This document shows positions 26,522-40,188 of a stretch of 64,000 nt of DNA, piece by piece. The DNA comes from an uncultured Bacteroidia bacterium (GTDB lineage Bacteria > Bacteroidota > Bacteroidia > Bacteroidales > Prolixibacteraceae), in NCBI GenBank assembly GCA_903902325.1, contig CAIUUO010000158.1, positions 1-64,000 of the forward strand, given 5' to 3'. A program made the position numbers and the translations under genes. How positions within the stretch are numbered: position 1 is the first letter of the stretch; every line of letters begins with the position of its first letter. Below the pieces are notes generated by a model. That model saw only the letters and a program-made list of their open reading frames with translations. It was not told the origin of the DNA and did no database searches.

Positions 26522-28270
26522 TCAGAGTTTAAGCGTTTTAACAATATTTCCTGCTTTTCGTGAAATATAATTGACTTTTACTTCACCTTTCCCTTCCACA
26601 AGAAACTGGTATTCTGAATAACCGTAACTGGGAACAGAAGTATAAATAATCTCGGGTTTGTGTTCCTGGTAACTTATTTTGTTGGTTCTGATATCGGTTA
26701 TTTTGCCTGAAGCGACCACCTTGGCTCCGGTCACTTTAAGCATATCCGGTGTATAAAGTTTTGTGCTCATTGCCTTGCTTGACATAGAAGGTAATCCTTT
26801 CTCATTTTTAAGACGGATTCTTACCTGATGAAGATTTTTACCAATCTCTTTCACATCAAAGATTTCCATGCTGATCTCCGGAGTCTGTTCCGCGGCATAC
26901 AATACCACCATGGCATTCCTGTGAACCAGATCGGGTAGCATGAAAGGATGGGGCAAACGGCCGCTCATCTTCACCCAACCACCGATTTCTATGTCACCAT
27001 AGGTTGGATGTTTAAATGGCTTCCACGGTTTGTAAAGCTCATTTAGTCCGAGGTAATCGTTGAATTTAAGCTGTTCCCTGCTCTCTTCAGGATTGCCTCC
27101 CCGCCTGGACGAACTGCTTTCCGAATCGGAAGCTGGTGTCAAAGGTTTGTTGATATTATCCCGGTAGGTCTCCTGGCTTCTCATAAAAAGCTCGCCGACG
27201 AAGGTATAGGATCCTTCCAGAAAAAACATGTGCGAATCGGAATCACCATGCGTATCGTACAGATCGTAAGAAGGCTGGTAAACAGTACCCGGAGTGATTT
27301 TGGTGGCATTTTTGCCGATCAGATCGTAAACTGCCACATCTCGTGGATCGACCTTTTCTTCTTTGATGGAAGGAGCCCGGAGCCACATTCCGCCCGAATT
27401 GTGAAAGGCGAAATTGACAATGATATTGGGACGCTGATGGATGTAGGCCGCAATAGCTTTGATGCCCAATGCTTCAAGCGGAAAACTGCCTGCCCCGCTT
27501 TGTACGTAATTGGGTTGCCAGTCGTAACCCCAGTTGCGGTTAGCGTCGAAATAACCTTCTCCATCCTCATTGATTTTTCCGTCGCCGTCATTGTCGATAC
27601 CCTCTTCCCCTAAAAGCGTCCATTCGCCTTTTTCTCCGGGTTTGACGGGAATCATCAACCTGTTGTCTTCAGGATCCGTTTTATAATTTCCCAGCGGATC
27701 TTTGATACGCATCATGCATATATTTCCATCTCCGTCGAGGTCGTCAGGGCCATCCTCGTCGACCAATCCATCCCGGTCGTCATCCTTTGGGATCCTGAAA
27801 CTTCGGTCAGAACTGGATGTTTGGGCATCCTTGAAAAAGTGGTACCTGCCATCCACATTGACTACAGGAATAATGTAATAAGCATTTTTGTCAACCACTT
27901 TGGTGATTTTATCATTGTCACTATATTTGGTCAGCAGCATATTGGCGAAGTACAGACATACTTCACCTGCCTGTATCTCATTCCCATGAATGTTCCCGTC
28001 AATGTACACTCCCGGTTTTGTGAGAGGTTCCCCGGTTTTTGGATTGTTGATGGTGAGCGCATATATTTCACGCCCCTCTTCGCTTTTACCAACCAGGTCA
28101 AGTTTAGTCAATTGGGGATAGGTACTGTGCAACAGTTTCAACGCCTCAACCACGTCTTCATAAGTATAATACCTGTCGAAACGGAGCGGTATTTCAATTT
28201 TATCCTTGTTTTCGGCCACTACCATGAAGGTCAATAAGCAGCATGCAACGATGGTAAATATCTTTTTCAT
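26522..28270 (-). CDS. M14 zinc carboxypeptidase, secreted
   Basis: Predicted exported metallocarboxypeptidase of 582 residues with a signal peptide (about 1-20). The M14 zinc-binding pair is present as His95 and Glu98 in DGNIHGNEIQAGE; the third ligand is probably the His in NFAFHNSGG, and FVGELF carries a Glu in the expected catalytic region. Between them are two Asp-rich, calcium-site-like inserts (DDDRDGLVDEDGPDDLDGDG and DNDGDGKINEDG). The C-terminal 150 residues form a beta-sandwich. The gene follows its paralogue at 28273 with a 2-bp gap, so the two are cotranscribed and probably work together. Substrate unknown. Confidence 0.92.
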   Translation of the reverse strand: MKKIFTIVACCLLTFMVVAENKDKIEIPLRFDRYYTYEDVVEALKLLHSTYPQLTKLDLVGKSEEGREIYALTINNPKTGEPLTKPGVYIDGNIHGNEIQAGEVCLYFANMLLTKYSDNDKITKVVDKNAYYIIPVVNVDGRYHFFKDAQTSSSDRSFRIPKDDDRDGLVDEDGPDDLDGDGNICMMRIKDPLGNYKTDPEDNRLMIPVKPGEKGEWTLLGEEGIDNDGDGKINEDGEGYFDANRNWGYDWQPNYVQSGAGSFPLEALGIKAIAAYIHQRPNIIVNFAFHNSGGMWLRAPSIKEEKVDPRDVAVYDLIGKNATKITPGTVYQPSYDLYDTHGDSDSHMFFLEGSYTFVGELFMRSQETYRDNINKPLTPASDSESSSSRRGGNPEESREQLKFNDYLGLNELYKPWKPFKHPTYGDIEIGGWVKMSGRLPHPFMLPDLVHRNAMVVLYAAEQTPEISMEIFDVKEIGKNLHQVRIRLKNEKGLPSMSSKAMSTKLYTPDMLKVTGAKVVASGKITDIRTNKISYQEHKPEIIYTSVPSYGYSEYQFLVEGKGEVKVNYISRKAGNIVKTLKL

Positions 28271-28272
28271 GA

Positions 28273-30117
28273 TTAACCTCCAATCTTAATTTGTTTAACT
28301 TCCGGATTAAAAGTAACCGATTCGATGTGGGCCTCTAGAATAGTTTTCTTGTCTGTTTTGATGGTGAAGGTAATCTTCCTGACCTGGTTGCCACCAAAAT
28401 CACCGAGAGGTGTTCGTTTGTAGCCTTCCAGAAATTCGAGGTTTTCACCTTCCAGAATGAGAATGACGGGCGCCGGTTGTTTGTTCCTGGATCCCATGGC
28501 AGTAGGATAGGGAAGAACGCCTTTGTTTTCAACGAAAAATTCAAGCCTGTAAACACCGGCTCCCAGGTCTGTCACAACTTCCTTCATCAAATGCAGATCC
28601 GGAAGTTTCGTTGAGAGGGTTAGGAGCCAGGGCAGTTGGGCCTTGCAAAGTGAGTCGATTTTTGTCGGTGGAGGAGTGGATGTGACAAACGGCACAATTC
28701 CTCCGATTTCGACTTTGCCCAGGGAGGGATGGTTAAATGGCTGCCATTTTACAAAGCCCTCTCCCTTCAGTTTATTGTCGATGTACGCCATTATGTTTTT
28801 GTCCTTGTCGTCTGTTACTACAGTTCTGGAGGTCGGATCCCGCTGAAATGACTCCCTTGTTCTTGGCTCTGCAGGCTTTACAGGAGGTGTAAACAGGTTC
28901 ATACTGAACGATGGAACACCCAAATGGTAATAAGCCCAAAGTTCGAAAGAACCATCCTTGTCGGGATCTGCGACCATCCTGTCTGTAGAACATCCCCTGG
29001 CTTTTAGGTAGGCCTTGTATTTATCCGAAAAATCGGAATAAAATTTCAGGTCTTCCTCCATGGGATTGACTGCGGCACCCAGTCCAAGCATGTCAATAAT
29101 GGTTTCTGCCGTCATTTCCCTTCCTGGACGGCTAGGCATAGACGATTTGAACAATTCAACTACCTCGGCCATCGTAAAGGTCTTTTCAGGATCAACGCCC
29201 AGACGGCTGGCAAATCGGGCAGGCACCTTGATGCTCTCCATATTTGCTCCGCCTTTGCGCCCAACTCGTGGCGTGGCCATGCAAAAGTCTGATGTACCAA
29301 GCGTATATGCCATCAATATTTCCGGATGACTGTATACAAATTTCATGATGCCGTATACTTCAGGTGCCTGACCGGGCCATAATCCGGTTTCTTTCAAATT
29401 TGATTTGAAAAGATGCGGAAAGTTGATGCCAACATTGATGCCGCCGGGTCCGTCTTCATTGATCTCACCATCGCCATCGTTATCAATACCTTCAGGGTAG
29501 ATTTTGTATTTTCCCCTTTCGCCTTTTGACGGATCCGCCTTAACCATGATTCTTGGATCCTTATCTGAAACGATGAAGGTTCCTTCCGGGTCTTCAACCC
29601 TCATCTGGGTGATCCAGCCATCACCGTTCAGGTCGTCAGGTCCGTCTTCATTAATCTGGTCATCCTTGTCGTCGTTCACCTCAAAATCATTGACAGTTCG
29701 CTCCCATTTTACCTTGGAGAAATATCCGACCGTAGCATCAGGATTTGGCAAAGGAAGAATAAACCATTTGACATTTTGGGTGTACCTCACAGAGTCGAGC
29801 AGCATTTTGGCGAGATAAAGGGCTCCTTCTGTAGAAAGTGGTGTCTTACCTTCAAAATTTGCTCCAACAAATATGGCGGGTACATTTTTAAGCTCCTTGC
29901 CTATTTCAAGAACATTGATAGGTTCACCGCCAGGACTCTGCGCGATCTGGTGGATGGCGGTTCTTGAAGGAGATTTCTCCTGTAGTGATAGCAATGCTTT
30001 CTGGACCTCAGCATTTGTTTTGTACTTATCGAAAGTAATCCCTGTTTGGGCAAAAAGAGTTGAATAAAATGCAATAAGTAAAAGTACCCACAAAGTGCTA
30101 TGAATTTTTTTTGACAT
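28273..30117 (-). CDS. M14-like protein that has lost the zinc site
   Basis: Paralogue of the adjacent carboxypeptidase, 614 residues with a signal peptide (1-24, ending LFAQ). The shared architecture includes both Asp-rich inserts (NDDKDDQINEDGPDDLNGDG and DNDGDGEINEDGPGG). However, the place of the zinc motif reads GANFEGKTPLSTEGALYLA, with no HxxE. The position of the third zinc His reads AYTLGTSDF, and the catalytic Glu region reads PSFSMNLF. All active-site elements are gone while the frame is intact, which points to a maintained non-catalytic protein, perhaps a binding or scaffolding partner of the active enzyme 2 bp downstream. It is the first gene of the pair. Confidence 0.9.
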   Translation of the reverse strand: MSKKIHSTLWVLLLIAFYSTLFAQTGITFDKYKTNAEVQKALLSLQEKSPSRTAIHQIAQSPGGEPINVLEIGKELKNVPAIFVGANFEGKTPLSTEGALYLAKMLLDSVRYTQNVKWFILPLPNPDATVGYFSKVKWERTVNDFEVNDDKDDQINEDGPDDLNGDGWITQMRVEDPEGTFIVSDKDPRIMVKADPSKGERGKYKIYPEGIDNDGDGEINEDGPGGINVGINFPHLFKSNLKETGLWPGQAPEVYGIMKFVYSHPEILMAYTLGTSDFCMATPRVGRKGGANMESIKVPARFASRLGVDPEKTFTMAEVVELFKSSMPSRPGREMTAETIIDMLGLGAAVNPMEEDLKFYSDFSDKYKAYLKARGCSTDRMVADPDKDGSFELWAYYHLGVPSFSMNLFTPPVKPAEPRTRESFQRDPTSRTVVTDDKDKNIMAYIDNKLKGEGFVKWQPFNHPSLGKVEIGGIVPFVTSTPPPTKIDSLCKAQLPWLLTLSTKLPDLHLMKEVVTDLGAGVYRLEFFVENKGVLPYPTAMGSRNKQPAPVILILEGENLEFLEGYKRTPLGDFGGNQVRKITFTIKTDKKTILEAHIESVTFNPEVKQIKIGG

Positions 30118-30309: not shown

Positions 30310-31293
30310 ATGGTATTTATGCACAGATTTTTAATATTGATTTCATTACTGTTTTTTTCTGCTCAGCTGCTCTTCTCGCAGCCCGGCGATTCAATTGTAT
30401 CGCGGAGATACCATGAATTATCAGCAAGTTGGGACAATGATGCTCTCATGAACACTGATTATTATTACACCCAGGGTTTAATGACTCAAATTGTTCTTCC
30501 TTGTCTTGAAAAAAATCCAATCAACCATTTATTTTTTCATATAAAAAATGCCAGAAATTACTTTGGTTTCGCGGTTGCTCAGGAGATGTTTACTCCTATT
30601 AATATAGAAGATACATTGATTATTTCCAATGATCGTCCTTATGCCGGCGTATTGTATGTAAGGAGTTTAAAAGTTTCAAATTGCCAGGGAGTAAGATTGA
30701 AATTTACTTCCGAGTTTGACTTGGGCATTCTGGGCTCTGCTTCAGGTGCTGGTTATGTCCAGAAGACCATTCATGAGATCAATGGATTGATACCCCCAAA
30801 TGGATGGTCTTACCAGATTCAAAATATGCCATATATCAATTACAATGTAATGATTGATAAAGGAATAGCTGAAAGTCCTGGATTTTCGGAATTACTTTAT
30901 TCAGCCAAAGCTCGCATTGGTACCATTTATGATGATATACAGTTTGGATTGAAAGTCAGAACCGGATTGATAAACAGTTATTTTGATGGAGTAACCATAC
31001 AGGACAGGTCATTGAATTCACACAGAGATATTCAGGCTTATTTTTATGGAGGAGCCAGTGGAAAAGCAGTTCTTTACAATACACTGCTTACTGGAGGCAT
31101 GTTTTCTTCAGGCAATCCGCATGTGTTGAATTATGATGAAATGTCCCATTTCGTGTACTCCTGCAACATGGGTATTTTCCTCGCATACAAGGGAGTAGGA
31201 GCAAAGTTTGAATTTTTTGGACAGTCGCCTGAGTTTGCAGGTGGACTATACCATGGTTGGTTCACAACGGCTGCTGTAATAAGTTTCTATTGA
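30310..31293 (+). CDS. LpxR-like lipid A deacylase (DUF2219), outer membrane
   Basis: Predicted outer-membrane beta-barrel of 327 residues that removes the 3'-acyloxyacyl chains from lipid A. A signal peptide occupies about residues 1-23 (an ATG at 30319 would also serve). The LpxR-type hallmarks are the N-terminal SWDNDALMNTDYYYTQGL, with the conserved Asp and Asn residues, and NDRPYAGVLYVRSL, followed by amphipathic strands and a C-terminus ending in aromatic residue plus Tyr. No other envelope-modification gene is adjacent. It is divergent from the M14 pair. Confidence 0.88.
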   Translation: MVFMHRFLILISLLFFSAQLLFSQPGDSIVSRRYHELSASWDNDALMNTDYYYTQGLMTQIVLPCLEKNPINHLFFHIKNARNYFGFAVAQEMFTPINIEDTLIISNDRPYAGVLYVRSLKVSNCQGVRLKFTSEFDLGILGSASGAGYVQKTIHEINGLIPPNGWSYQIQNMPYINYNVMIDKGIAESPGFSELLYSAKARIGTIYDDIQFGLKVRTGLINSYFDGVTIQDRSLNSHRDIQAYFYGGASGKAVLYNTLLTGGMFSSGNPHVLNYDEMSHFVYSCNMGIFLAYKGVGAKFEFFGQSPEFAGGLYHGWFTTAAVISFY

Positions 31294-31406: not shown

Positions 31407-32072
31407 TTACCTCTTTATCCCGTTCGGAGCCTTGAGATTATCATCCAGCCATTTGCTTATCTGTTGCAGCCCTGTCACGGCAGAAGTGTCGTTGGGACGG
31501 ATGATCATTGCCTGTTGAAACAAAATCTTGGCATCGGCATGACTGTTATTGTAAAGTTTGGACCAGGCAAGCATAATCACTGAATCGTAATCAAGAGGGT
31601 ATAGGTTAACCACCTTTTCAAACAGATTGGTAGCCGATTTGTAATCCTTGCGATTATAAAAAATTACCCCAAGCCAATAGTTTGCAGTGGTATTCAAAGG
31701 GTCTATTTTCAGTATCTCCAGATATTGTTCTTTCACTTTTTCCCAGTTTTCGACCGCACTGAGCGGCTTGATGCAACCAAATTTTGCTTCAATCGCATAG
31801 GGTTTTAGTGATATGGCTTTTTTATAATAGGAGATGGACTCGCCATACTGTTTGGCAAGATAATTGAGCCATCCCAACCGGACGTTTGAGATGTAATTAT
31901 CCGCCTGATAAATTGCTTTCATTTCATTGATGGCGGTGCTATAGTTGTTCTGATTCTCAGCAATATAACTTTTGCTGAATGCCGACTGTAATTCATTAAT
32001 GTTCTGAGCTTCCAGCGGAATAGCTATCAAGATAATAGCTGCAACAATCAGTAATTTCTTTAAAGTTTCCAT
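31407..32072 (-). CDS. Exported tetratricopeptide repeat protein
   Basis: 221 residues with a signal peptide (1-22, ending EAQ) and about four to five TPR units (for example VRLGWLNYLAKQYGESISYYKKA, TTANYWLGVIFYNRKDYKSA). TPRs mediate protein contacts; no enzymatic motif is visible. The start overlaps the upstream TPR-barrel gene by 13 bp, and it is the last gene of the eight-gene minus-strand run 40188-31407. Its dependence on translational coupling suggests it works with the TPR-barrel protein in the periplasm. Confidence 0.85.
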   Translation of the reverse strand: METLKKLLIVAAIILIAIPLEAQNINELQSAFSKSYIAENQNNYSTAINEMKAIYQADNYISNVRLGWLNYLAKQYGESISYYKKAISLKPYAIEAKFGCIKPLSAVENWEKVKEQYLEILKIDPLNTTANYWLGVIFYNRKDYKSATNLFEKVVNLYPLDYDSVIMLAWSKLYNNSHADAKILFQQAMIIRPNDTSAVTGLQQISKWLDDNLKAPNGIKR

Positions 32073-33205
32073 TTTATTCCTCCTGAATATGAATATTGAT
32101 AATAGAATTTATTTGCCGTGCTATTTTCTATTTCCTGCTGATCAAAGGTGAAATTTCCCGACAATACAAGATGCTTTCCCAAAAACCATGCCAAAGTAAG
32201 GCCTGTTCTGAATACAGATGGGTCTGTCGAATTGTATACGTAAAGCGCGTTGGTCGTGTTGTAATTTTTAAGATTGCCCAAGGTAATATTTCCTTCTGCC
32301 CATAAATTACCTATGCATTTTAATCCGGCAGTCTCTGCAAAGATTGTACGGCAAACAGAATTTTCAATCATACCGGCAACTGCGCTTGTAAAGTACATAT
32401 TTGATTTCCCAGGTAAAACGAACCCGGCCTGAAATCCATATTGCTGGGTTGTAGCTTGAGCAGATTGCAGAAGAGATGCATTTGCTTCCAGATTGAAGCG
32501 GTTCAATTGGGATGAAATTGCCATTAAACCAAGATTTGCGGGATAATTTGTATTCCCGACAGTGGTAAACAACCTGTGAAAGGCCGTTTTGATCTGCCAG
32601 GCGGGGACGATGGCTATTTTGAGGATTGCAAGGTATTCAGGTTGTTGTGTAAGTGTATTGCTTATATTCTGTTCATAATAGGAGTATGCCTGATAAAGGG
32701 ATACCCTGTAGCCAAGTTCTGTATTGATCCCTGCCCTGTAATAAATTTGGTTGGAACGGGTTGTTTCCTGATTGGTTTTCAGATTGATTTCAGTATCAAC
32801 TGACTCAACCGGATTATATTTTTGGATACCAAGTCTATTTGCTGAATCGTAGGAAAGAATTCCGGCGTAATAGCGGGTGTTCATGAACCCTGCATTTAGA
32901 CTTGAATAGTAAAGATATTCTCTTGAGATATTATCGGACTGATCAAACGATAATGCTTTTTCATATTGGTTCTTTGCGGCATAATAATCGCCTGAAATGA
33001 AATAGGCGTAGCCTGCACGTTGGCGCATAAATTTCGAGTCAATGTCTTGCTTGAATGCTTCTTTTGTCAGTTCAATCAGATTTTTCCAGTCACCTTTCAG
33101 GTAATACTGATAAGAGAGGCTATCGGCTTGCTGGAAACTGAGTTTGACCTGCGAAAATGAAGCCAACGGGATAAATAGAAGAAGAATTACAATATATCTG
33201 CACAT
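32060..33205 (-). CDS. TPR plus outer-membrane beta-barrel protein
   Basis: 381 residues with a signal peptide (1-18, ending ASFSQ). The first third contains two or three TPRs (MRQRAGYAYFISGDYYAAKNQYEKA); the remaining 250 residues are alternating amphipathic strands (GINTELGYRVSLYQAYSYYEQ, FYYQYSYSGGIKWKL at the end) typical of an outer-membrane barrel with the soluble TPR part facing the periplasm. I do not recognise a named family. It overlaps the urea-transporter/M23 gene upstream by 19 bp and the TPR gene downstream by 13 bp, so these three are tightly linked. Role: possibly an outer-membrane exit or anchor for the pathway. Confidence 0.8.
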   Translation of the reverse strand: MCRYIVILLLFIPLASFSQVKLSFQQADSLSYQYYLKGDWKNLIELTKEAFKQDIDSKFMRQRAGYAYFISGDYYAAKNQYEKALSFDQSDNISREYLYYSSLNAGFMNTRYYAGILSYDSANRLGIQKYNPVESVDTEINLKTNQETTRSNQIYYRAGINTELGYRVSLYQAYSYYEQNISNTLTQQPEYLAILKIAIVPAWQIKTAFHRLFTTVGNTNYPANLGLMAISSQLNRFNLEANASLLQSAQATTQQYGFQAGFVLPGKSNMYFTSAVAGMIENSVCRTIFAETAGLKCIGNLWAEGNITLGNLKNYNTTNALYVYNSTDPSVFRTGLTLAWFLGKHLVLSGNFTFDQQEIENSTANKFYYQYSYSGGIKWKL

Positions 33206-35400
33206 TTTGCCTCAATTGTTATTTTTTTATTCTGGTACGTAAACTCTTCAATACGATTGTTTTTCAAAGTGATGGATCCTATACTTTCCCGATGGATCCT
33301 GCCATATACGGTGAGATTGATATTTGAGAGAAGCGTCAGGGATGATGGATTTCCAGCATCATCCTTTGCAATTGGTTTAATCGTAAATAAGGCACGAATT
33401 CGATTGGAGAAAGGAGCAACAAAATCATAAAGCCAGAGAATCCCATTTTTATTGAAGATCGAGGTTAATGGCAATTCATCCTTGACCTCGACATTTTCGT
33501 AATATCCCAGTAGGACTTTGTATGCTGTGAGATAGAAATAGTAGAGCAGGGAGTTTTTATTGCCATAGAAGGCAGTAAAATAGAAAATATTCCCATCATT
33601 AAAATAATAAGCAGTACTTTCTGTCTCGGCACAATAGAGGTATCGATAGTTGAGTGCATCGGTGAATGCCTCCCACTGCTCGGATTTTTCAACTCTTTTA
33701 GTATTTGTATAGTTAAATTGAAAGGAAGTATTTGGTTGGATGGTAAATGCGTTATTCAACAGGGAATGGGTATGTACATCCGTAATCATTTCACCTTCGT
33801 CAGGATTGGAAAAAGAAGAAAGAATCTCTGAGTTGTTATCTGCTTTCAGATAGCAGGCAAAAGGATAATTGATTGTTTTAGCACCGGCTATAGGTGATGA
33901 TTGCACCTGAAAGTGAATGTGGGGCTGATGAGAACGTCCTGAATTTCCACAATTTGCCAGAATATCCCCCCTTTTCACCGTGTCTCCCTTGGCCACTTTG
34001 AAGGACCCTTTCCGCAAATGAGAGAGCTGTGTGTACAGGCCTGGTAAATGCCTGATGATAATTGTATTCCCCCAGTTGTTGACTGTGTCGGTTTTCCCGA
34101 TTTCATTGTCACAGATCTGATCGGTGATCTCTTCAACGATACCATCTGCAGGCGCCAGCACCGGTTTATTGTAACAGTAGTAATGTTCACAAAGCAAACC
34201 AGTGGATGTATAACTTTTCATTTCTTCATCCAGAAGGATGAAATCGTAGGCAAATTTCCATTCGCCTTTGTGGGTAAATTTCCCGTCATGGCCCTGACTC
34301 ACAATCCATTTCCCCCAAAAAGGGAGGTGCAATGGGAAATAATTCATCTGAGAAAGCCTTATTTTATTGTTTTGATAGGTATAAAGGTTCGTTTCCGGAG
34401 AGTAGTGCTGGAAAGGAGTCAATACAAGGCCTGAAGGGTTTTTTCTCATCATCAGGAAGTAGAGAAAAAGGATCGTGACGAGTGAAAAGGGGAGAGAAAA
34501 AACAGGCAGTTGAATTTCACCGAATAGTTTGGTCAGCGACAGTAAGACCACAGAGGTGAGCGGTACGAGTAAAAATGTCCAGAAGTACGATCGGCCTGAA
34601 GGTACAACGAAGAATCCTCCGACAGCAAGTGCAGTCATGATGTAATTGGCACCAATGTTGTAATAGGAGAAACCTGCTGTATCAGATCCCGTAAATGTGG
34701 CGAAAAGATAGGCGGACAGGAAACCAATGACAGAAAGTGAGAAGGCGATTCTTGAACTGATCAGCAGTAAAACGGCGATTAAAAGGCCCGACAGGATGTT
34801 ATTCTGGAAGAAAACGGAACTCAGCGATCTTAAGTAGGTATCGGCAAGGTTGTTGATAGAGAGGCTATTAATTGATTGAAGGAAATTAACAAGATGGCTT
34901 CCCCCAACTGCATAGGCTTCATTGATCCAATAAATATTTCGGTGCGTAAGACCGAGGTTCTCAAAGGTCGCAGAGGGAAGCACAATCACCCAAAATCCGA
35001 GCACGAAGGGAACACTAAGGAAGGGTAAACCATATTTTCCAAACCATCCGCTTAAGGTAACAGAAAGAATTAGGGTTAAAAGTACCCCCAACAGTAGCAG
35101 ACTGAAATATACCAATCCAGGATCAAAAAAAGTTCCCATCCCAAGTCCAAACAGCAAGGCATTGAAACTATATATCCCTTTTTTTATCAGAATCTTGTCA
35201 AACCCCATGGCGCTTGCAACTAAAACTGATGTCAGAACTGCGGTCAATCCACTCAATCCCGCGTAAAAATTAAAAAAAGTCAGAATCAAAATACCAAATG
35301 CAAACAACCTGCTGTTCAAAAAGAAAACGATGGAATAACTGCTCAGCACTGCTGGCAGAATATTTTCTTTCAACGAAGTTATATGTCGGGTTATTTGCAT
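33187..35400 (-). CDS. Urea-transporter-like membrane domain fused to an M23 peptidase domain
   Basis: 737 residues. Residues 15-318 contain about ten hydrophobic segments and the urea-transporter signature IYSFNALLFGLGMG (77-90), with a second-half counterpart near 245-262 (YYNIGANYIMTALAVGG). Residues about 360-510 are a LytM/M23 domain with its metal-site residues: His377 and Asp386 in THKGEWKFAYDF, His461 in QLSHL and HIH (494-496). PADGIV and DTVKRGDILANCGNSG are typical lipoyl-like M23 strands. The last 220 residues are beta-rich and unassigned. The M23 part would lie in the periplasm. Substrate of the channel part may be urea, another amide or the product of the adjacent enzymes. Confidence 0.88.
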   Translation of the reverse strand: MQITRHITSLKENILPAVLSSYSIVFFLNSRLFAFGILILTFFNFYAGLSGLTAVLTSVLVASAMGFDKILIKKGIYSFNALLFGLGMGTFFDPGLVYFSLLLLGVLLTLILSVTLSGWFGKYGLPFLSVPFVLGFWVIVLPSATFENLGLTHRNIYWINEAYAVGGSHLVNFLQSINSLSINNLADTYLRSLSSVFFQNNILSGLLIAVLLLISSRIAFSLSVIGFLSAYLFATFTGSDTAGFSYYNIGANYIMTALAVGGFFVVPSGRSYFWTFLLVPLTSVVLLSLTKLFGEIQLPVFSLPFSLVTILFLYFLMMRKNPSGLVLTPFQHYSPETNLYTYQNNKIRLSQMNYFPLHLPFWGKWIVSQGHDGKFTHKGEWKFAYDFILLDEEMKSYTSTGLLCEHYYCYNKPVLAPADGIVEEITDQICDNEIGKTDTVNNWGNTIIIRHLPGLYTQLSHLRKGSFKVAKGDTVKRGDILANCGNSGRSHQPHIHFQVQSSPIAGAKTINYPFACYLKADNNSEILSSFSNPDEGEMITDVHTHSLLNNAFTIQPNTSFQFNYTNTKRVEKSEQWEAFTDALNYRYLYCAETESTAYYFNDGNIFYFTAFYGNKNSLLYYFYLTAYKVLLGYYENVEVKDELPLTSIFNKNGILWLYDFVAPFSNRIRALFTIKPIAKDDAGNPSSLTLLSNINLTVYGRIHRESIGSITLKNNRIEEFTYQNKKITIEAKCADIL

Positions 35401-35456
35401 AAGTGACTTGCTTTAGAAATCCAGGGATATCGTTAACATTGTTTATTTGGGTTGAA

Positions 35457-36818
35457 TTACGATGGCGTATCTTTTTTTAAATACGCTGGGATTTGCTCTG
35501 CTGACTCTATATAGTCAAGTGTTTCCGCTTTTCTGATCAGATGTGAATGACCCTCCTGATCCAAAAGAACTACGTTAGGCCTCAGGGTGATGAATTGCAT
35601 CCATTGTGTCATGTTGTATGCGCCAACCCTGTGGACGACCAGATGGTCTCCCTTCTGAAGCAAAGGGAGCGTGATGTTTTCGCTGATGATGTCAATGTTC
35701 ATGCAAAGAGGTCCGTATAGTACTGTTTCTTCCGTATATTGTCCGCCATCCTGTGCGGGACTGATCTTAAAGTCATACCAGAAAGATGTGAACAATGTAT
35801 TTACACCAAAGTCGAGTATAGTAGATCTTCTGCCGTCAGAAAGGCGTTTGTTGGCCAATACAGTGCCTAGCAAAAAACCCGCATCATCAATCAAGGCCCT
35901 CCCCGTCTCAAGAATGAGCAATGGAAGTTCATCCTGTCTGAACCCGAAATCCAGAATTGCCCCAGTAATTGCATCTGCAAACTGGTCGATGGTTGGAACT
36001 GTATCAACACCTGGCAGATAAGAACCTTTCAGGGTATTGCTGGATGGAAAACCTCCTCCCATATCCAGATACTGAATGGTTTTGTTATGCTTTTCTTTGA
36101 TGTTCCGCAACAAATCGCACAATTTGACAGCTGCAATGGCATAGGCTCCGGTTTCCAGCATGAAGGTACCTATGTGGCAGTGTAACCCGACCAGATTCAG
36201 GTTCTCACAATTTATGATCCTTGTAATGGCATTCCATGCTTGTCCGTTTTCGTAATTGAAACCAAAACGATCCCATTTGGGATAAATGCCTGTATCCATG
36301 TTAACCCGGATGGCTACCCTTGGTTTCAGCTGAAACTCCTCACTTAGTTTAATGAGCGAGTAAAGTTCATCAAAATGATCAATGTGTATGAGTGAATTAT
36401 TTCGGGCTGCTTTAACCAACTGTTCATCAGTTTTATCGGGCCCGTTAAAAATAATCTTGTTTCCTGGCACACCATTCCCCAGTGCCTTTTCATATTCGAA
36501 ACCCGAAACTACTTCTGCCCATGAACCCTCTTGGTGGAAAATTTTACAAACGGCATTCAAATAATTTGTTTTATATGACCAAGCAAATTGAATTTTGGGA
36601 TATCGGGTTTTAAATACCCTGACTGCATGTTGGTAATTGCGTCTGATCTGTTTCTCTGAGATGACAAACAGGGGCGATCCGTATTGCCGGATAAGCTCTT
36701 TTACGCCTACCCCTTCAAGATGTGTTACCACCTCATTCTTTAACTGTGAACCAAATTTATTGCTAAAACCGGTATTCAGCTTTTTGATGATCGGCCTCTC
36801 ATATTTCAGTTTTTCCAT
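35457..36818 (-). CDS. Fold-III PLP-dependent decarboxylase (DapDC/ODC-like)
   Basis: 453 residues, alanine-racemase-fold PLP enzyme related to diaminopimelate and ornithine decarboxylases. Lys83 in FAWSYKTNYL binds PLP; VVSGFEYEKAL and KIIFNGPDKTDEQL are the usual barrel loops; HCHIGT supplies the His near the cofactor; GGGFPSSNT binds the phosphate. In the C-terminal domain Cys372 in YGPLCMNID is the catalytic Cys of the family, and HRVGAYN the conserved GAY loop. The substrate-specificity loop does not let me name the amino acid. True lysA is normally near lysine genes; here neighbours are an ATP-grasp ligase and PqqD-like protein, so a secondary pathway is more likely. Confidence 0.88.
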   Translation of the reverse strand: MEKLKYERPIIKKLNTGFSNKFGSQLKNEVVTHLEGVGVKELIRQYGSPLFVISEKQIRRNYQHAVRVFKTRYPKIQFAWSYKTNYLNAVCKIFHQEGSWAEVVSGFEYEKALGNGVPGNKIIFNGPDKTDEQLVKAARNNSLIHIDHFDELYSLIKLSEEFQLKPRVAIRVNMDTGIYPKWDRFGFNYENGQAWNAITRIINCENLNLVGLHCHIGTFMLETGAYAIAAVKLCDLLRNIKEKHNKTIQYLDMGGGFPSSNTLKGSYLPGVDTVPTIDQFADAITGAILDFGFRQDELPLLILETGRALIDDAGFLLGTVLANKRLSDGRRSTILDFGVNTLFTSFWYDFKISPAQDGGQYTEETVLYGPLCMNIDIISENITLPLLQKGDHLVVHRVGAYNMTQWMQFITLRPNVVLLDQEGHSHLIRKAETLDYIESAEQIPAYLKKDTPS

Positions 36819-36861
36819 CGTAAAATAAATTCATTTTCAAATAGTGGTTTGTACTTGTTCC

Positions 36862-36981
36862 GGGATTCGGGATACGGGTTACGGGTTACGAGAAAATCAT
36901 GATCTAAACTTTTTTTACTTTTTCCTTTTTCCTTTATCCTTTTTACTTTTTCCTTTATCCTTTATCCTTTTTCCTTTTTTA
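36862..36981. repeat. Two heptamer arrays between decarboxylase and ATP-grasp genes
   Basis: The first array (36862-36889) has four units: gggattc, gggatac, gggttac, gggttac. The second (36919-36981) has nine pyrimidine-rich units: tttttcc, tttttcc, tttatcc, tttttac, tttttcc, tttatcc, tttatcc, tttttcc, tttttta. The last unit contains the stop codon of the minus-strand ATP-grasp gene. In the transcript of that strand the second array is a purine tract directly after the stop. Confidence 0.85.
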
Positions 36982-38049
36982 CAACTCTCCCATTCCAGAT
37001 ATTTTCTGAAATTCACCTACCTCAACGATCATATCCCACGAATAGCGGATAAACATTTTACCTGCTACGTAATCCTTGAACGGCTCAACTTTTTCTCCCA
37101 GTGCCATTTTTACCAGTGTTGCAGGCTGATTCTGGCCAGCTGCGGCCGTCAGGTAAATCCAGGCAGGGAAACGTGGATTTACCTCCATGATATAGGCTTT
37201 TCCGTCGTTTGTCTGCATTACCTCCAGTTCACAACCGCCCCTCCATTTAGTTGCCGTGATGAATTGGTGTGCAAGATCAATAAATGAACTCTCTTCGATC
37301 GTAATACCTGCCCATGCCTTCCCTTTGTCCGTGATAAAAAGTTTTCGCATGGGAATGATACTGATAGCATTGCCTTTCCCGTCGCCAAGAATCGCAATAT
37401 TTATCTCTGTCCCTTTGATAAACTGCTGTGCAATAATGGGTAATCCCCATTTTGCCTGCAATTGCAAGAATGCTTTTTGTGCATCATCCTTTGAATTGAC
37501 AATGATGGCATCATAATATTTTCCTTTGATGACCAATGGATAATCAAGTTCGTCGGCTGCCTTGGTTAGATCAGATATTTGATGAATAAGGCGATCTTCT
37601 GGTATCAGAAATTTGTGCTTCTTGCCAAATTTGAAAAGCATAGTCTTGTGCCTTGCTTCAAATTGCCCCAGATCCGGCAGAAAAGTATGGATGCCCATAT
37701 TATTCAGGTCATCGCTTAATTTAATGAAACTGAATAGTTCTGCATCGAAATTGGGTATGATCAGATCGATTTTTTCCTGTTCATGTATGTACTTCAGCCT
37801 ATGCAGCAAATTTTCTGTTCCTGCCGGAGGATAAGGAATCTGGTAGGCCTTGTCAACCAGATCATGCATGTATATTCCCGGTTCAAGCGGTTCATAACTG
37901 AGGCCAATAATTCGGACATCGAAATCAGGACATTCCCGAATGGCACGAAGGACAGCTACGCCAGGACCCGGGCTGTCGATGGCATTTAGTCCGGTGACGG
38001 CAATCACCAGTTTTCTCCTGGTGGAGGTATTTGTAGTTTCAGTTTTCAT
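36979..38049 (-). CDS. ATP-grasp ligase (carbamoyl-phosphate-synthase-like)
   Basis: 356-residue protein with a Rossmann-like N-terminal preATP-grasp region (LVIAVTGLNAIDSPGPGVAVLRA, then LIIPNFDAELFSF) and an ATP-grasp core. Core markers are DYPLVIKGKYYDA, with the Lys that binds ATP phosphates; IIAQQFIKGTEINIAILGDG; and CELEVMQTNDGKAYIMEVNPRFPAW, with the metal-binding Glu and Asn. It should join a carboxylate to an amine or similar nucleophile through an acyl phosphate. The start overlaps the PqqD-like gene by 11 bp, a sign of translational coupling. Substrates cannot be read from sequence. Confidence 0.9.
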   Translation of the reverse strand: MKTETTNTSTRRKLVIAVTGLNAIDSPGPGVAVLRAIRECPDFDVRIIGLSYEPLEPGIYMHDLVDKAYQIPYPPAGTENLLHRLKYIHEQEKIDLIIPNFDAELFSFIKLSDDLNNMGIHTFLPDLGQFEARHKTMLFKFGKKHKFLIPEDRLIHQISDLTKAADELDYPLVIKGKYYDAIIVNSKDDAQKAFLQLQAKWGLPIIAQQFIKGTEINIAILGDGKGNAISIIPMRKLFITDKGKAWAGITIEESSFIDLAHQFITATKWRGGCELEVMQTNDGKAYIMEVNPRFPAWIYLTAAAGQNQPATLVKMALGEKVEPFKDYVAGKMFIRYSWDMIVEVGEFQKISGMGEL

Positions 38050-38284
38050 CCAATAAATTGTAATCTCTCAGTTGGGACATGAAATCTTCCAGATCACGTT
38101 CAAACTGGTTTTTTTCAACATCATATCGGGATGCAATTACTTCGATAATTTCCTGCCGGGACTTGTCTTCTTTCAATTGAGTCAATATTTCCGATCCAAT
38201 CGGATTGGAAGAGAAAGAGTCACCGGATGCCGGATTGAAAATAAAACCCGCCTCGCTTGTTGCAATATTTCTCTTGAATCTCAT
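38039..38284 (-). CDS. PqqD-family peptide chaperone-like protein
   Basis: 81-residue protein with the PqqD/RiPP-recognition-element fold pattern: a beta hairpin (AGFIFNPASGDSFSSNPIG), then helices (SEILTQLKEDKSRQEIIEVIASRYDV and QFERDLEDFMSQLRDYNLL). PqqD proteins bind precursor peptides and present them to a modifying enzyme. No radical SAM gene is present; the partner here is evidently the ATP-grasp ligase, whose start codon it overlaps by 11 bp. No short precursor-peptide gene is visible in the 48-bp or 160-bp gaps of the run, so the peptide, if any, is encoded elsewhere or the protein has another binding role. Confidence 0.8.
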   Translation of the reverse strand: MRFKRNIATSEAGFIFNPASGDSFSSNPIGSEILTQLKEDKSRQEIIEVIASRYDVEKNQFERDLEDFMSQLRDYNLLDEN

Positions 38285-38332
38285 AGTAATGGTTGATTTA
38301 GAATAGTATAGTAGGTTTGGAAGGTCAGAGAT

Positions 38333-39052
38333 CTATAAATAAAAGGTTTTATCCAAAAATTTCTGAAAATTGTCCTTGTATTGTTCCCCGATGGGGATGT
38401 AAATTTTTTCGTCAAAGATAATCCTGTTCCTTTCTATTATCTTAACCTGGCTCAGGTTGACGATAAAAGACCGGTGAACGCGCATAAAAAGGTTCTCTGG
38501 AAGTTCTGACTCAATATTTTTCATCCGCATCAGTGTAGTTACAGGCTTATCTTTGATCAGGTGTATGACAATGTATTCATTGGAGCCCTCAATGTATTTA
38601 ATATCAGCCATATGAATCCTGATTAACCTGTGCTCCGCTTTTACAAAGAGGTAATCCTGTGTCGGCTGGACAACGTCGGCTGGTTTGTTGTTCAGGTCGA
38701 ACCAGGCTTTGGCTTTATTGGCAGATTTCAAAAACAGAACATAACTGATCGGTTTTAGCAAATAGTCAAGTGCGTCGACCTGAAAGCCTTCGATGGCATA
38801 TTCACTGTAAGCTGTCGTGAAAATGACAGGAATTTTCTTTTCCAGCGACTTTACAAAGTCCATCCCGTTCAGGTCAGGCATGTTGATATCTACAAAAAGA
38901 AGGTCAATTTTTCCATCCCTCACACACTCAAGTGCTTGAAAAGCATTGGAGCAAAGGGCAACAGTTTCGAGAAAAGGAGTTTTCTCGATATAAGTTCCAA
39001 TTTGTTTCAGGGCAAGAGGTTCGTCATCTATTGCCAGGCATCTAATCTTCAT
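38333..39052 (-). CDS. LytTR-family response regulator
   Basis: 239 residues: receiver domain (1-120) with Asp9-Asp10, phosphoacceptor Asp55 in LLFVDINMPDLNG, Thr in VIFTTAYSEYA and Lys in YLLKPIS; then a LytTR DNA-binding domain (about 140-239) with FVKAEHRLIRIHMADIKYIEG and FMRVHRSFIVNL. It follows the sensor kinase by 20 bp on the same strand and precedes the PqqD-like gene by 48 bp. Cognate partner of the kinase at 39073; LytTR proteins bind direct repeats, which I did not locate with confidence. Confidence 0.95.
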   Translation of the reverse strand: MKIRCLAIDDEPLALKQIGTYIEKTPFLETVALCSNAFQALECVRDGKIDLLFVDINMPDLNGMDFVKSLEKKIPVIFTTAYSEYAIEGFQVDALDYLLKPISYVLFLKSANKAKAWFDLNNKPADVVQPTQDYLFVKAEHRLIRIHMADIKYIEGSNEYIVIHLIKDKPVTTLMRMKNIESELPENLFMRVHRSFIVNLSQVKIIERNRIIFDEKIYIPIGEQYKDNFQKFLDKTFYL

Positions 39053-39072
39053 GACTCAATTATTTTATTATA

Positions 39073-40188
39073 TTATTCTATTGGGACACTTAAAAATACG
39101 TGGAACTCATCCTCTTTTTCTGCGATGTCGAATTGGTAATTTTTTCCAAAAAGGAGTTCCAGACTTTTCTTGATATTGGTTAAACCAATGCCCGAATACA
39201 TGTTCCCCGAATCTTTTATTTTTCCGTTTTTGCTGTTTTTGATGATACAATTCAAACGGTTTTCATTTATATCCAGACTGAACAATACGAAAGATTCATT
39301 CTGATAACTTACGCCATGTTTGAAAGCATTTTCGAGCAAAGAGATAAACAGCATCGGAGGCATCTGAATCTCAGGGATCTTTTTGGGAATATCCAGTGTA
39401 ATGGTTACATGCTCCGAAAACCTCAGTTTCATCAGAGAGATATAACTTTCGATAAATCCAATTTCCTTGGCAAGACTTGTATTCCCGTGGGCCGTATCAT
39501 AGAGCAGGTACCGCATCATGGTAGAGAGGCGAATGACTGCACCTTTGGCATCTTCAGCGTTGATATCGATCAATGAGTGGATATTATTCAGCGTATTCAT
39601 GAAGAAGTGCGGACTAACCTGATGTCTGAGGAAAGCCAGTTCGCTTTTAAGCTGTTCTTTTTCAAGATCCTTTCGACGGTCATCCGCGATTAGCCATTGT
39701 CCGATCACTTTAAAAGTCGAACTACTTCCTACAATGAGGAATGAAATGGTCACATTCGCGACCACCAACAGCGAAAAGGAGTCATAATCTGATTTCCTGG
39801 AGAGTTTGTAACCAATTGGGGCAGGCATCCCCGAACCCAGTTCCATTGGAATGCCTGATCCGAGGTCCATCGGAGGCATGGCCAGGGGCGTTGGGAAAAG
39901 AAGGGCATTCAATAAGATACCTGCTACGGTCATGCCTGCAATCAGAAGAATGGCAGATAGAATATACGATTTGTATTTTTGTGTAATCAGATATTTGGGA
40001 ATCAATACTGATATATTGATTGCGAAGATCAGGAAGAAACCAAAGATGCGCAGCCATTCAGATAACAATTTCTGCCAGTCGAGTGAACTGTAGCCCCACT
40101 GGTTGAAGAATGGAATGGAGAAAATTCCCAGCCAGATAACCCCGAAAAGCAGAAACTCAATGACCTCTATTTTGATTGATTTGTTCAT
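39073..40188 (-). CDS. LytS/YehU-type sensor histidine kinase
   Basis: 371 residues with four membrane helices (about 11-29, 46-65, 75-98, 137-158) and a cytoplasmic His_kinase plus ATPase region. The phosphoacceptor is His194 in RHQVSPHFFMNTLNNIHSL; the N box is LLENAFKHGV and the G region SGIGLTNIKKSLELLFG. The loop between helices 3 and 4, predicted outside the membrane, is rich in Met, Pro and Gly with an internal near-duplication (MDLGSGIP, MELGSGMP). It pairs with the LytTR regulator 20 bp downstream. A perfect -7 element precedes the gene, making it the likely first gene of the run that includes the PqqD/ATP-grasp/decarboxylase genes. Confidence 0.94.
   Translation of the reverse strand: MNKSIKIEVIEFLLFGVIWLGIFSIPFFNQWGYSSLDWQKLLSEWLRIFGFFLIFAINISVLIPKYLITQKYKSYILSAILLIAGMTVAGILLNALLFPTPLAMPPMDLGSGIPMELGSGMPAPIGYKLSRKSDYDSFSLLVVANVTISFLIVGSSSTFKVIGQWLIADDRRKDLEKEQLKSELAFLRHQVSPHFFMNTLNNIHSLIDINAEDAKGAVIRLSTMMRYLLYDTAHGNTSLAKEIGFIESYISLMKLRFSEHVTITLDIPKKIPEIQMPPMLFISLLENAFKHGVSYQNESFVLFSLDINENRLNCIIKNSKNGKIKDSGNMYSGIGLTNIKKSLELLFGKNYQFDIAEKEDEFHVFLSVPIE

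Follow-up and report, generated by a model that had tools for sequence, protein, structure and literature searches.

Several enzymatic systems are known in which a small molecule is built on a macromolecular support. In the LysW/LysX system, an ATP-grasp ligase loads a small substrate on the side chain of a protein carrier, during butirosin biosynthesis BtrJ and BtrK load and decarboxylate glutamate on a carrier, and in the borosins, core peptide and modifying enzyme form one fused protein. The group upon which BtrK acts is a carrier-bound glutamyl (PMC8503589). In the pathways of ribosomally synthesized and post-translationally modified peptides (RiPPs), the usual clients of PqqD-type RiPP recognition elements (RREs) are peptides (PMC7470986). 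The RREs of lasso and related pathways recognize the motif [Y/W]xxPx[L/V/I/F/A], and in the crystal structure of LppB, residue D70 forms a hydrogen bond with the leader Tyr and N33 holds the Pro kink, whereas mutation of D70 or N33 weakens or abolishes complex formation (PMC13381572). Here we describe a gene cassette from an uncultured bacterium of the family Prolixibacteraceae (Bacteroidota), encoded in the first 64,000 nucleotides of contig CAIUUO010000158.1 (assembly GCA_903902325.1; hereafter, the window). It contains a PqqD-like protein, an ATP-grasp ligase, a pyridoxal phosphate (PLP) decarboxylase, a fusion of a urea-transporter-fold channel with an M23 metallopeptidase domain (UT-M23), a tetratricopeptide repeat (TPR) protein with a probable outer-membrane barrel, and a second TPR protein. 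We propose, with a probability of roughly 0.7, that this cassette encodes an RRE-guided system with an enzyme as its client.

The PqqD-like protein (81 aa; 38039..38284, minus strand) matches PF05402 with an E value of 3.4e-14, and the genome has no other PqqD-family match. Its sequence matches in the PDB at E values up to 1 are all lasso RREs, namely TbiB1 (2.1e-7), TfuB1 and chain B of 9x90. The features of YxxP-binding RREs are found in it, from the fold of about 80-90 aa to the Asn and Asp contacts and the Phe that divides the pocket (N33, D70 and F74 in LppB), and the residues predicted to bind the motif are N27, D64, F68, L72 and L77. In the alignment with 9x90, N27 falls on G42 of PbaB1 (N33 of LppB), D64 on Q79 (D70 of LppB) and F68 on F83. 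Among the 170 loci in which PqqD was paired with its decarboxylase, N27 is invariant, F68 occurs in 157 and Asp or Asn at position 64 in 136, the exceptions being the loci whose decarboxylase has Phe at residue 6, plus one. Such sequence comparisons strongly support PqqD as an RRE of the YxxP type. We also considered that PqqD might itself be a carrier like LysW, with its C-terminus as the site of modification, and discarded this role, since that C-terminus is variable.

The decarboxylase (453 aa; 35457..36818, minus strand) is a fold-III PLP enzyme that combines PF02784 and PF00278 (Orn/DAP/Arg decarboxylase, where DAP is diaminopimelate). Its N-terminal residues 3-23 form a stretch that we call the tag (36750..36812, minus strand; K-L-K-Y6-E-R-P9-I-I11-K-K-L-N-T-G17-F-S-N-K21-F-G23), followed by a variable linker (residues 24-33), at which conservation breaks, and by the enzyme itself from about residues 31-34. 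In the paired loci, the consensus of the tag is [Y/F]-E-x-P-x-[ILVM]...K21-F-G, with E, F and G nearly always present: residue 6 is Tyr in 137 loci and Phe in 33, residue 9 is Pro in 170/170, residue 11 is Ile, Leu, Val or Met in 170/170, residue 21 is Lys in 169/170 (codon 36756..36758, minus strand; the candidate acceptor for the ATP-grasp enzyme) and residue 23 is Gly in 167/170. This pattern fits the YxxPx[LVI] leader motif bound by lasso-type RREs, and a leader-like tag on the decarboxylase is strongly supported by its sequence. LysA-like paralogues from the same phylum (27-31% identical) can be aligned only from about residue 25-41, and the tag is absent in all 16 of those examined, including the window genome's own, a separate gene on contig 111. 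A degenerate DNA pattern of the tag gave 44 matches over 149 genomes and its reversed control gave 0; most matches adjoin an ATP-grasp gene, and the five that were read, some of them on other contigs, are all decarboxylases. The tag is predicted to be disordered: in an AlphaFold model, the predicted local distance difference test (pLDDT) is about 27 at residues 1-20 and below 50 at residues 1-28, and most of the core from about residue 30-31 to about residue 170 exceeds 80. The two predicted structures of this work were built on six-row alignments of sequences from the window and related loci and are only of moderate quality (mean pLDDT 69 and 71).

If PqqD binds the tag, loss of the Tyr hydroxyl should free position 64 of PqqD. 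Of the 137 loci with Tyr6, 136 have Asp or Asn64, and all 33 with Phe6 have Tyr, Ser, Ala or His64, a pattern first met in a set of 97 loci and then in the 170 paired ones. When all PqqD and decarboxylase positions were compared by mutual information with average product correction (MI-APC), the 6/64 pair ranked first of 35,076 (z 12.4) in the 170 loci, and second of 36,693 in the smaller first set. On a tree from which the tag and column 294 of the ATP-grasp ligase were left out, residue 6 changes seven times, always on the same branch and in the same direction as one of the eight changes of PqqD residue 64, whereas random placement of the changes gives a mean of 0.13 shared changes and a maximum of 3 in 20,000 draws. 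The Jaccard index with PqqD residue 64 reaches 0.875 for residue 6, versus 0.20 for the next-best of 386 decarboxylase columns. A stricter count leaves four well-supported independent pairs, all of them concordant in most pairings, which are too few to reach 0.05. The covariation matches the Tyr-Asp contact of the LppB-leader crystal structure, and specific coevolution at a known RRE-leader contact is strongly supported. Because of the motif, the matching RRE pocket and this covariation, PqqD most likely has the decarboxylase's own tag as its peptide ligand, and we regard it as highly probable that the two interact. The initial annotation of this DNA had found no visible precursor peptide, which is right for separate genes and overlooks the leader motif on the N-terminus of the decarboxylase; we think that this N-terminus is the missing precursor.

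The second half of the tag points to the ATP-grasp carboxylate-amine ligase (356 aa; 36979..38049, minus strand). Tag residues 3-14 are enriched among the top 10 pairs with PqqD (3 vs. 0.3 expected), and residues 15-23 account for 17 of the top 100 pairs between decarboxylase and ligase (2.0 expected). A leader half that appears to address the RRE, followed by a half that appears to address the modifying enzyme, is the arrangement of RiPPs. The first of all 154,956 pairs between decarboxylase and ligase joins tag residue 19 to ligase residue 294 (z 11.5 in the larger set), and the same pair also comes first in the smaller set (z 8.7). Residue 294 (Phe in the window) follows directly the metal-site motif E289-x-N291-P-R293, beside the metal-binding Asn, and the active site of the ligase probably meets the tag residues near Lys21. 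In a Foldseek search with the ligase, the best match was 2pn1 (carbamoyl-phosphate-synthase-like), followed by biotin carboxylases and the L-amino-acid ligases 4wd3 and 3vot; given the proximity of these folds, the formation of an amide on an amine is a plausible chemistry for this enzyme.

These genes also stay together across the phylum. The initial annotation had suggested a comparison of gene neighborhoods in Bacteroidota, for which the genes around each fetched locus were scored with family-specific profiles, and a locus entered a count only where its sequence was long enough. Homologues of the ATP-grasp ligase were found in 66 of the 140 family genomes, in 121 of the 295 genomes sampled from the order and in 35 of the 395 sampled from the phylum. 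PqqD, ligase, decarboxylase and UT-M23 regularly co-occur: PqqD is present in 179 of the 181 ligase loci with room upstream and the decarboxylase in 118 of 121, and UT-M23 is found in 96 of 103 loci, a member of the TPR-barrel family in 81 of 91 and the TPR protein in 43 of 47. In a set of 148 genomes from across the phylum, the ligase, the channel part of UT-M23 and decarboxylases with 49% identity or more were found in the same 14 genomes, plus the window's own. The gene order is conserved far beyond chance, because the core of the cassette is retained even in loci where identity of the ligase falls to 39-45%, and the six genes as a phylum-wide conserved cassette are strongly supported. Among the loci that miss a gene, L134 was excluded as a member and L168 and L176 are accounted for below. 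L134 was left out for its ATP-grasp protein being 29% identical, unrelated and without the cassette. In two draft assemblies, G590 (loci L144 and L176) and G559 (loci L156 and L168), the tagged decarboxylase and the ATP-grasp gene lie on different contigs, the decarboxylase being on a contig other than that of L176 or L168; the pair may thus be kept in one genome without adjacency. A check for plasmid carriage of the cassette gave no match.

The mechanism that we propose starts with the binding of decarboxylase residues 3-14 by PqqD as a lasso-type leader, as supported by homology, residue mapping and covariation, with pocket 1 taking Tyr or Phe, pocket 2 taking Ile and the Pro lying at the kink. 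The bound PqqD would then present residues 15-23, including Lys21, to the active site of the ligase, a step for which the covariation offers few independent events. The reaction would most likely be the formation of an amide on Lys21, by which an amino acid would be loaded through its side-chain carboxylate; we give this acylation a little less than an even chance. Once tethered, the group could be decarboxylated in cis by the PLP enzyme, as in BtrJ/BtrK with carrier-bound glutamate, a step that we advance more tentatively. The decarboxylase shares with FslC a GPxCM motif where DAP decarboxylases carry CES, and this replacement suggests an acylated substrate. In the last and weakest step, UT-M23 and the exported TPR and barrel proteins would release and move a small product, which may pass through the fused channel and the outer membrane. 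The complete sequence of events, that is, RRE-guided loading on Lys21, decarboxylation on a flexible arm, cutting of the isopeptide by a cytoplasmic M23 domain and feeding of the product out of the channel, seems unlikely as a whole. The initial annotation had pictured the ligation and decarboxylation of an unseen peptide or amino-acid-derived product; the neighborhood comparison came out in its favor, and its unseen peptide most likely gives way to the tag of the decarboxylase.

With regard to the release step, UT-M23 (33187..35400, minus strand) matches PF03253 (E 1.1e-51) and PF01551 (E 3.4e-16). The Zn and catalytic residues of the M23 domain (H377, D386, H461, H494 and H496) are intact, and conserved in 66-67 of 70 proteins. 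Against the urea transporter model TIGR03441 the protein scores 119.9, below the cut-off of 274.6. When aligned to the solved bacterial transporter, in which a Gln/Glu pair binds urea in the pore, the Glu position is Ala or Ser in 64 of 70, and 58 of 70 retain the Gln, which is Ile in the window protein; since the pore Glu is replaced, and the Gln lost in the window protein, urea need not be the solute. Lys or Arg at residues 317, 319 and 321 (84, 93 and 56%), after the last hydrophobic stretch, are weak evidence from the positive-inside rule for a cytoplasmic M23 domain. Such a location, unusual for a wall peptidase, would fit the release of a Lys-bound product there, a role of the M23 domain that we find quite doubtful. 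A free-standing relative of 335 aa (L289) carries an M23 domain after several N-terminal hydrophobic segments; judging from its sequence, the same M23 subtype is thus also membrane-tethered without the urea-transporter fold. An apparent natural split of UT and M23 in L118 (9922-12195) was dismissed: the two parts are read in frames that overlap, the one-contig genome has the cassette otherwise intact, and the split looks like a frameshift. The TPR-barrel protein (381 aa; 32060..33205, minus strand) and the TPR protein (221 aa, TPR families; 31407..32072, minus strand) are predicted to be exported from their signal-like N-termini, and a search of the PDB for the barrel identity of the former recognized the TPR part alone.

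Several observations weigh against an enzyme that would be loaded by the ligase under RRE guidance. We infer the binding of the tag by PqqD from sequences, and locus L172, read as Tyr6 with His64, carries the sole change of PqqD residue 64 unmatched at residue 6 of the tag. Residue 19 has only 4 inferred changes on the tree and residue 294 only 2, with 2 of them shared, and because they are so few, this coupling could be lineage inheritance. Lys21 is invariant except for one metagenome contig, which places it outside the reach of covariation, and it might only dock. An amide on Lys21 would be stable, and its release is a proposed step that requires a cytoplasmic M23 domain, whose placement relies only on the positive flanking residues; Cys409 of UT-M23 is conserved and Cys484 partly so, and a periplasmic disulfide is equally possible.

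The alternative that survives best is one in which PqqD simply clips the tag, bringing the decarboxylase to the ligase, so that a free intermediate passes between them and the tag stays unmodified, with Lys21 and Gly23 as docking residues. It would account for the tag, the RRE and all the covariation, and each of the two is related to enzymes that act on small molecules (FslC and LysA; L-amino-acid ligases). However, the strongest coupling with the ligase falls on residue 294 in its E-x-N-P-R-F metal-site motif and not on a peripheral surface, and a single Lys kept in 169 of 170 loci exceeds the needs of a docking patch, so we regard this alternative as rather unlikely. Much less probable is a classical RiPP pathway, where PqqD serves an unrecognized precursor encoded elsewhere and the decarboxylase or the ligase modifies that peptide. 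PqqD-type RREs normally serve peptides (PMC7470986), and a distant small gene is conceivable in draft genomes, but in 93 loci no conserved small sense-strand open reading frame (ORF) with the motif was found near the cassette, and the conserved groups of small ORFs were only antisense shadow ORFs, so a separate precursor gene was rejected. The DNA pattern of the tag leads likewise to decarboxylases in the matches that were read, and PqqD residue 64 follows decarboxylase residue 6. In place of the short precursor gene of RiPP biosynthesis, the motif sits on a 453-aa enzyme. Neither a lasso B2 protease nor an asparagine-synthase-like cyclase is found among the genes of the cassette, and the PF00733 matches of the window genome are all on other contigs.

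A rhizoferrin-like siderophore pathway, with the ligase joining citrate or another acid to free ornithine or lysine and an FslC-like enzyme decarboxylating the product, appears just as improbable. FslC, the N-citrylornithine decarboxylase, is the best NCBIfam model for the window decarboxylase and also its best PDB match (7kh2, 3.5e-62; 7ru7 and 2j66 are relatives too), and the loci of some relatives have a heavy-metal-associated (HMA)/AraC regulator and DUF2202 neighbors. Nevertheless, the score for FslC is 236 bits versus a cut-off of 500 (for the LysA model TIGR01048, 219 versus 297.9), the ligase is an ATP-grasp enzyme and not a nonribosomal-peptide-synthetase-independent siderophore (NIS) synthetase, no siderophore receptor or exporter is recognized in the cassette, and the RRE and the tag are left unexplained. 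Finally, conserved N-termini can aid folding or oligomerization, but it is extremely improbable that the tag merely belongs to the normal structure of this decarboxylase subfamily and is unrelated to PqqD, as it is predicted to be disordered, is separated from the enzyme by a variable linker, is absent in the LysA paralogues examined and shows covariation with PqqD where crystal structures would lead one to expect it.

In the window, the cassette forms part of a run of eight minus-strand ORFs, all present as initially annotated, with recomputed gaps of 20, 48, -11, 160, 56, -19 and -13 bp that equal the earlier values; Pfam upheld the family calls for all eight proteins, and in 105 homologues of the decarboxylase, Lys83 (PLP) and Cys372 are each kept in at least 97%. 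The two remaining genes encode a LytS-type sensor kinase (His_kinase family; 39073..40188, minus strand) and a LytTR response regulator (Response_reg plus LytTR; 38333..39052, minus strand). Regulation of the pathway by this pair, as first suggested, does not hold in general: among 110 loci with sufficient upstream sequence, only 4 have a LytTR kinase and regulator there, as does the window, all of them near relatives, and elsewhere LuxR-type, AraC or other regulators occur. The pair was thus left out of the pathway as a local regulator outside the conserved cassette. An AraC-family regulator takes its upstream place in L048 (10904-11620), L051, L054 (243-833) and L003 (2969-3571), preceded in L048 by a heavy-metal-associated-like domain. 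Seven loci (L043, L044, L046, L048, L049, L051 and L054) have an extra gene of 259-284 aa inside or just after the cassette (13341-14132 in L046), which is not in the window; its product seems to be secreted, with a C-terminal sorting domain of type IX secretion (tested in L046). DUF2202 proteins, often in multiple copies, adjoin the cassette in L042-L044, L046-L048, L055 and L056, and a DUF4405 membrane protein is near it in L055 and L056. Beyond the cassette end, the window encodes an LpxR-type outer-membrane protein on the plus strand (30310-31293), facing it, and two side-by-side M14 zinc carboxypeptidases of 582 and 614 aa on the minus strand (26522-30117).

A search of the literature found no published account of this gene combination, of an RRE with a decarboxylase or of a tagged enzyme, and we thus describe a common cassette for which no described function was found, together with predictions at single residues (Tyr6/Asp64, Lys21 and residue 294 of the ligase). 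RREs serve as markers in genome mining for peptide natural products; the client of this one appears to be an enzyme. If true, RRE-leader docking would be a general route by which protein clients reach modifying enzymes, and the leader of some precursor-less RRE genes may be hidden on a neighboring enzyme.

Among known systems, the lasso RREs (TbiB1, 5v1u/5v1v; TfuB1, 6jx3; PbaB1, 9x90) and LppB share with this PqqD the PqqD/winged helix-turn-helix fold, the Asn/Asp pocket residues and a YxxPx[L/V/I] ligand, which here would be the N-terminus of a conserved decarboxylase and not a short precursor peptide; unlike lasso clusters, the cassette is without a recognized lasso protease or cyclase. The butirosin enzymes BtrI/BtrJ/BtrK also unite an ATP-grasp ligase and a fold-III PLP decarboxylase, with 7ru7 and 2j66 related to the window enzyme, but the cassette has no acyl carrier protein, and the proposed carrier would be a Lys on the decarboxylase itself. 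FslC (7kh2), the closest solved enzyme, shares the GPxCM motif, whereas its partner is a NIS synthetase instead of an ATP-grasp ligase, and the RRE and YxxP tag belong to the locus described here. In comparison with LysW/LysX, this system would use a Lys as acceptor in place of a C-terminal Glu, would have its carrier and the next enzyme in one polypeptide and would need an RRE. The borosins resemble this system in having a RiPP substrate segment embedded in an enzyme; they methylate themselves, whereas here a separate RRE and ligase would act on that segment.

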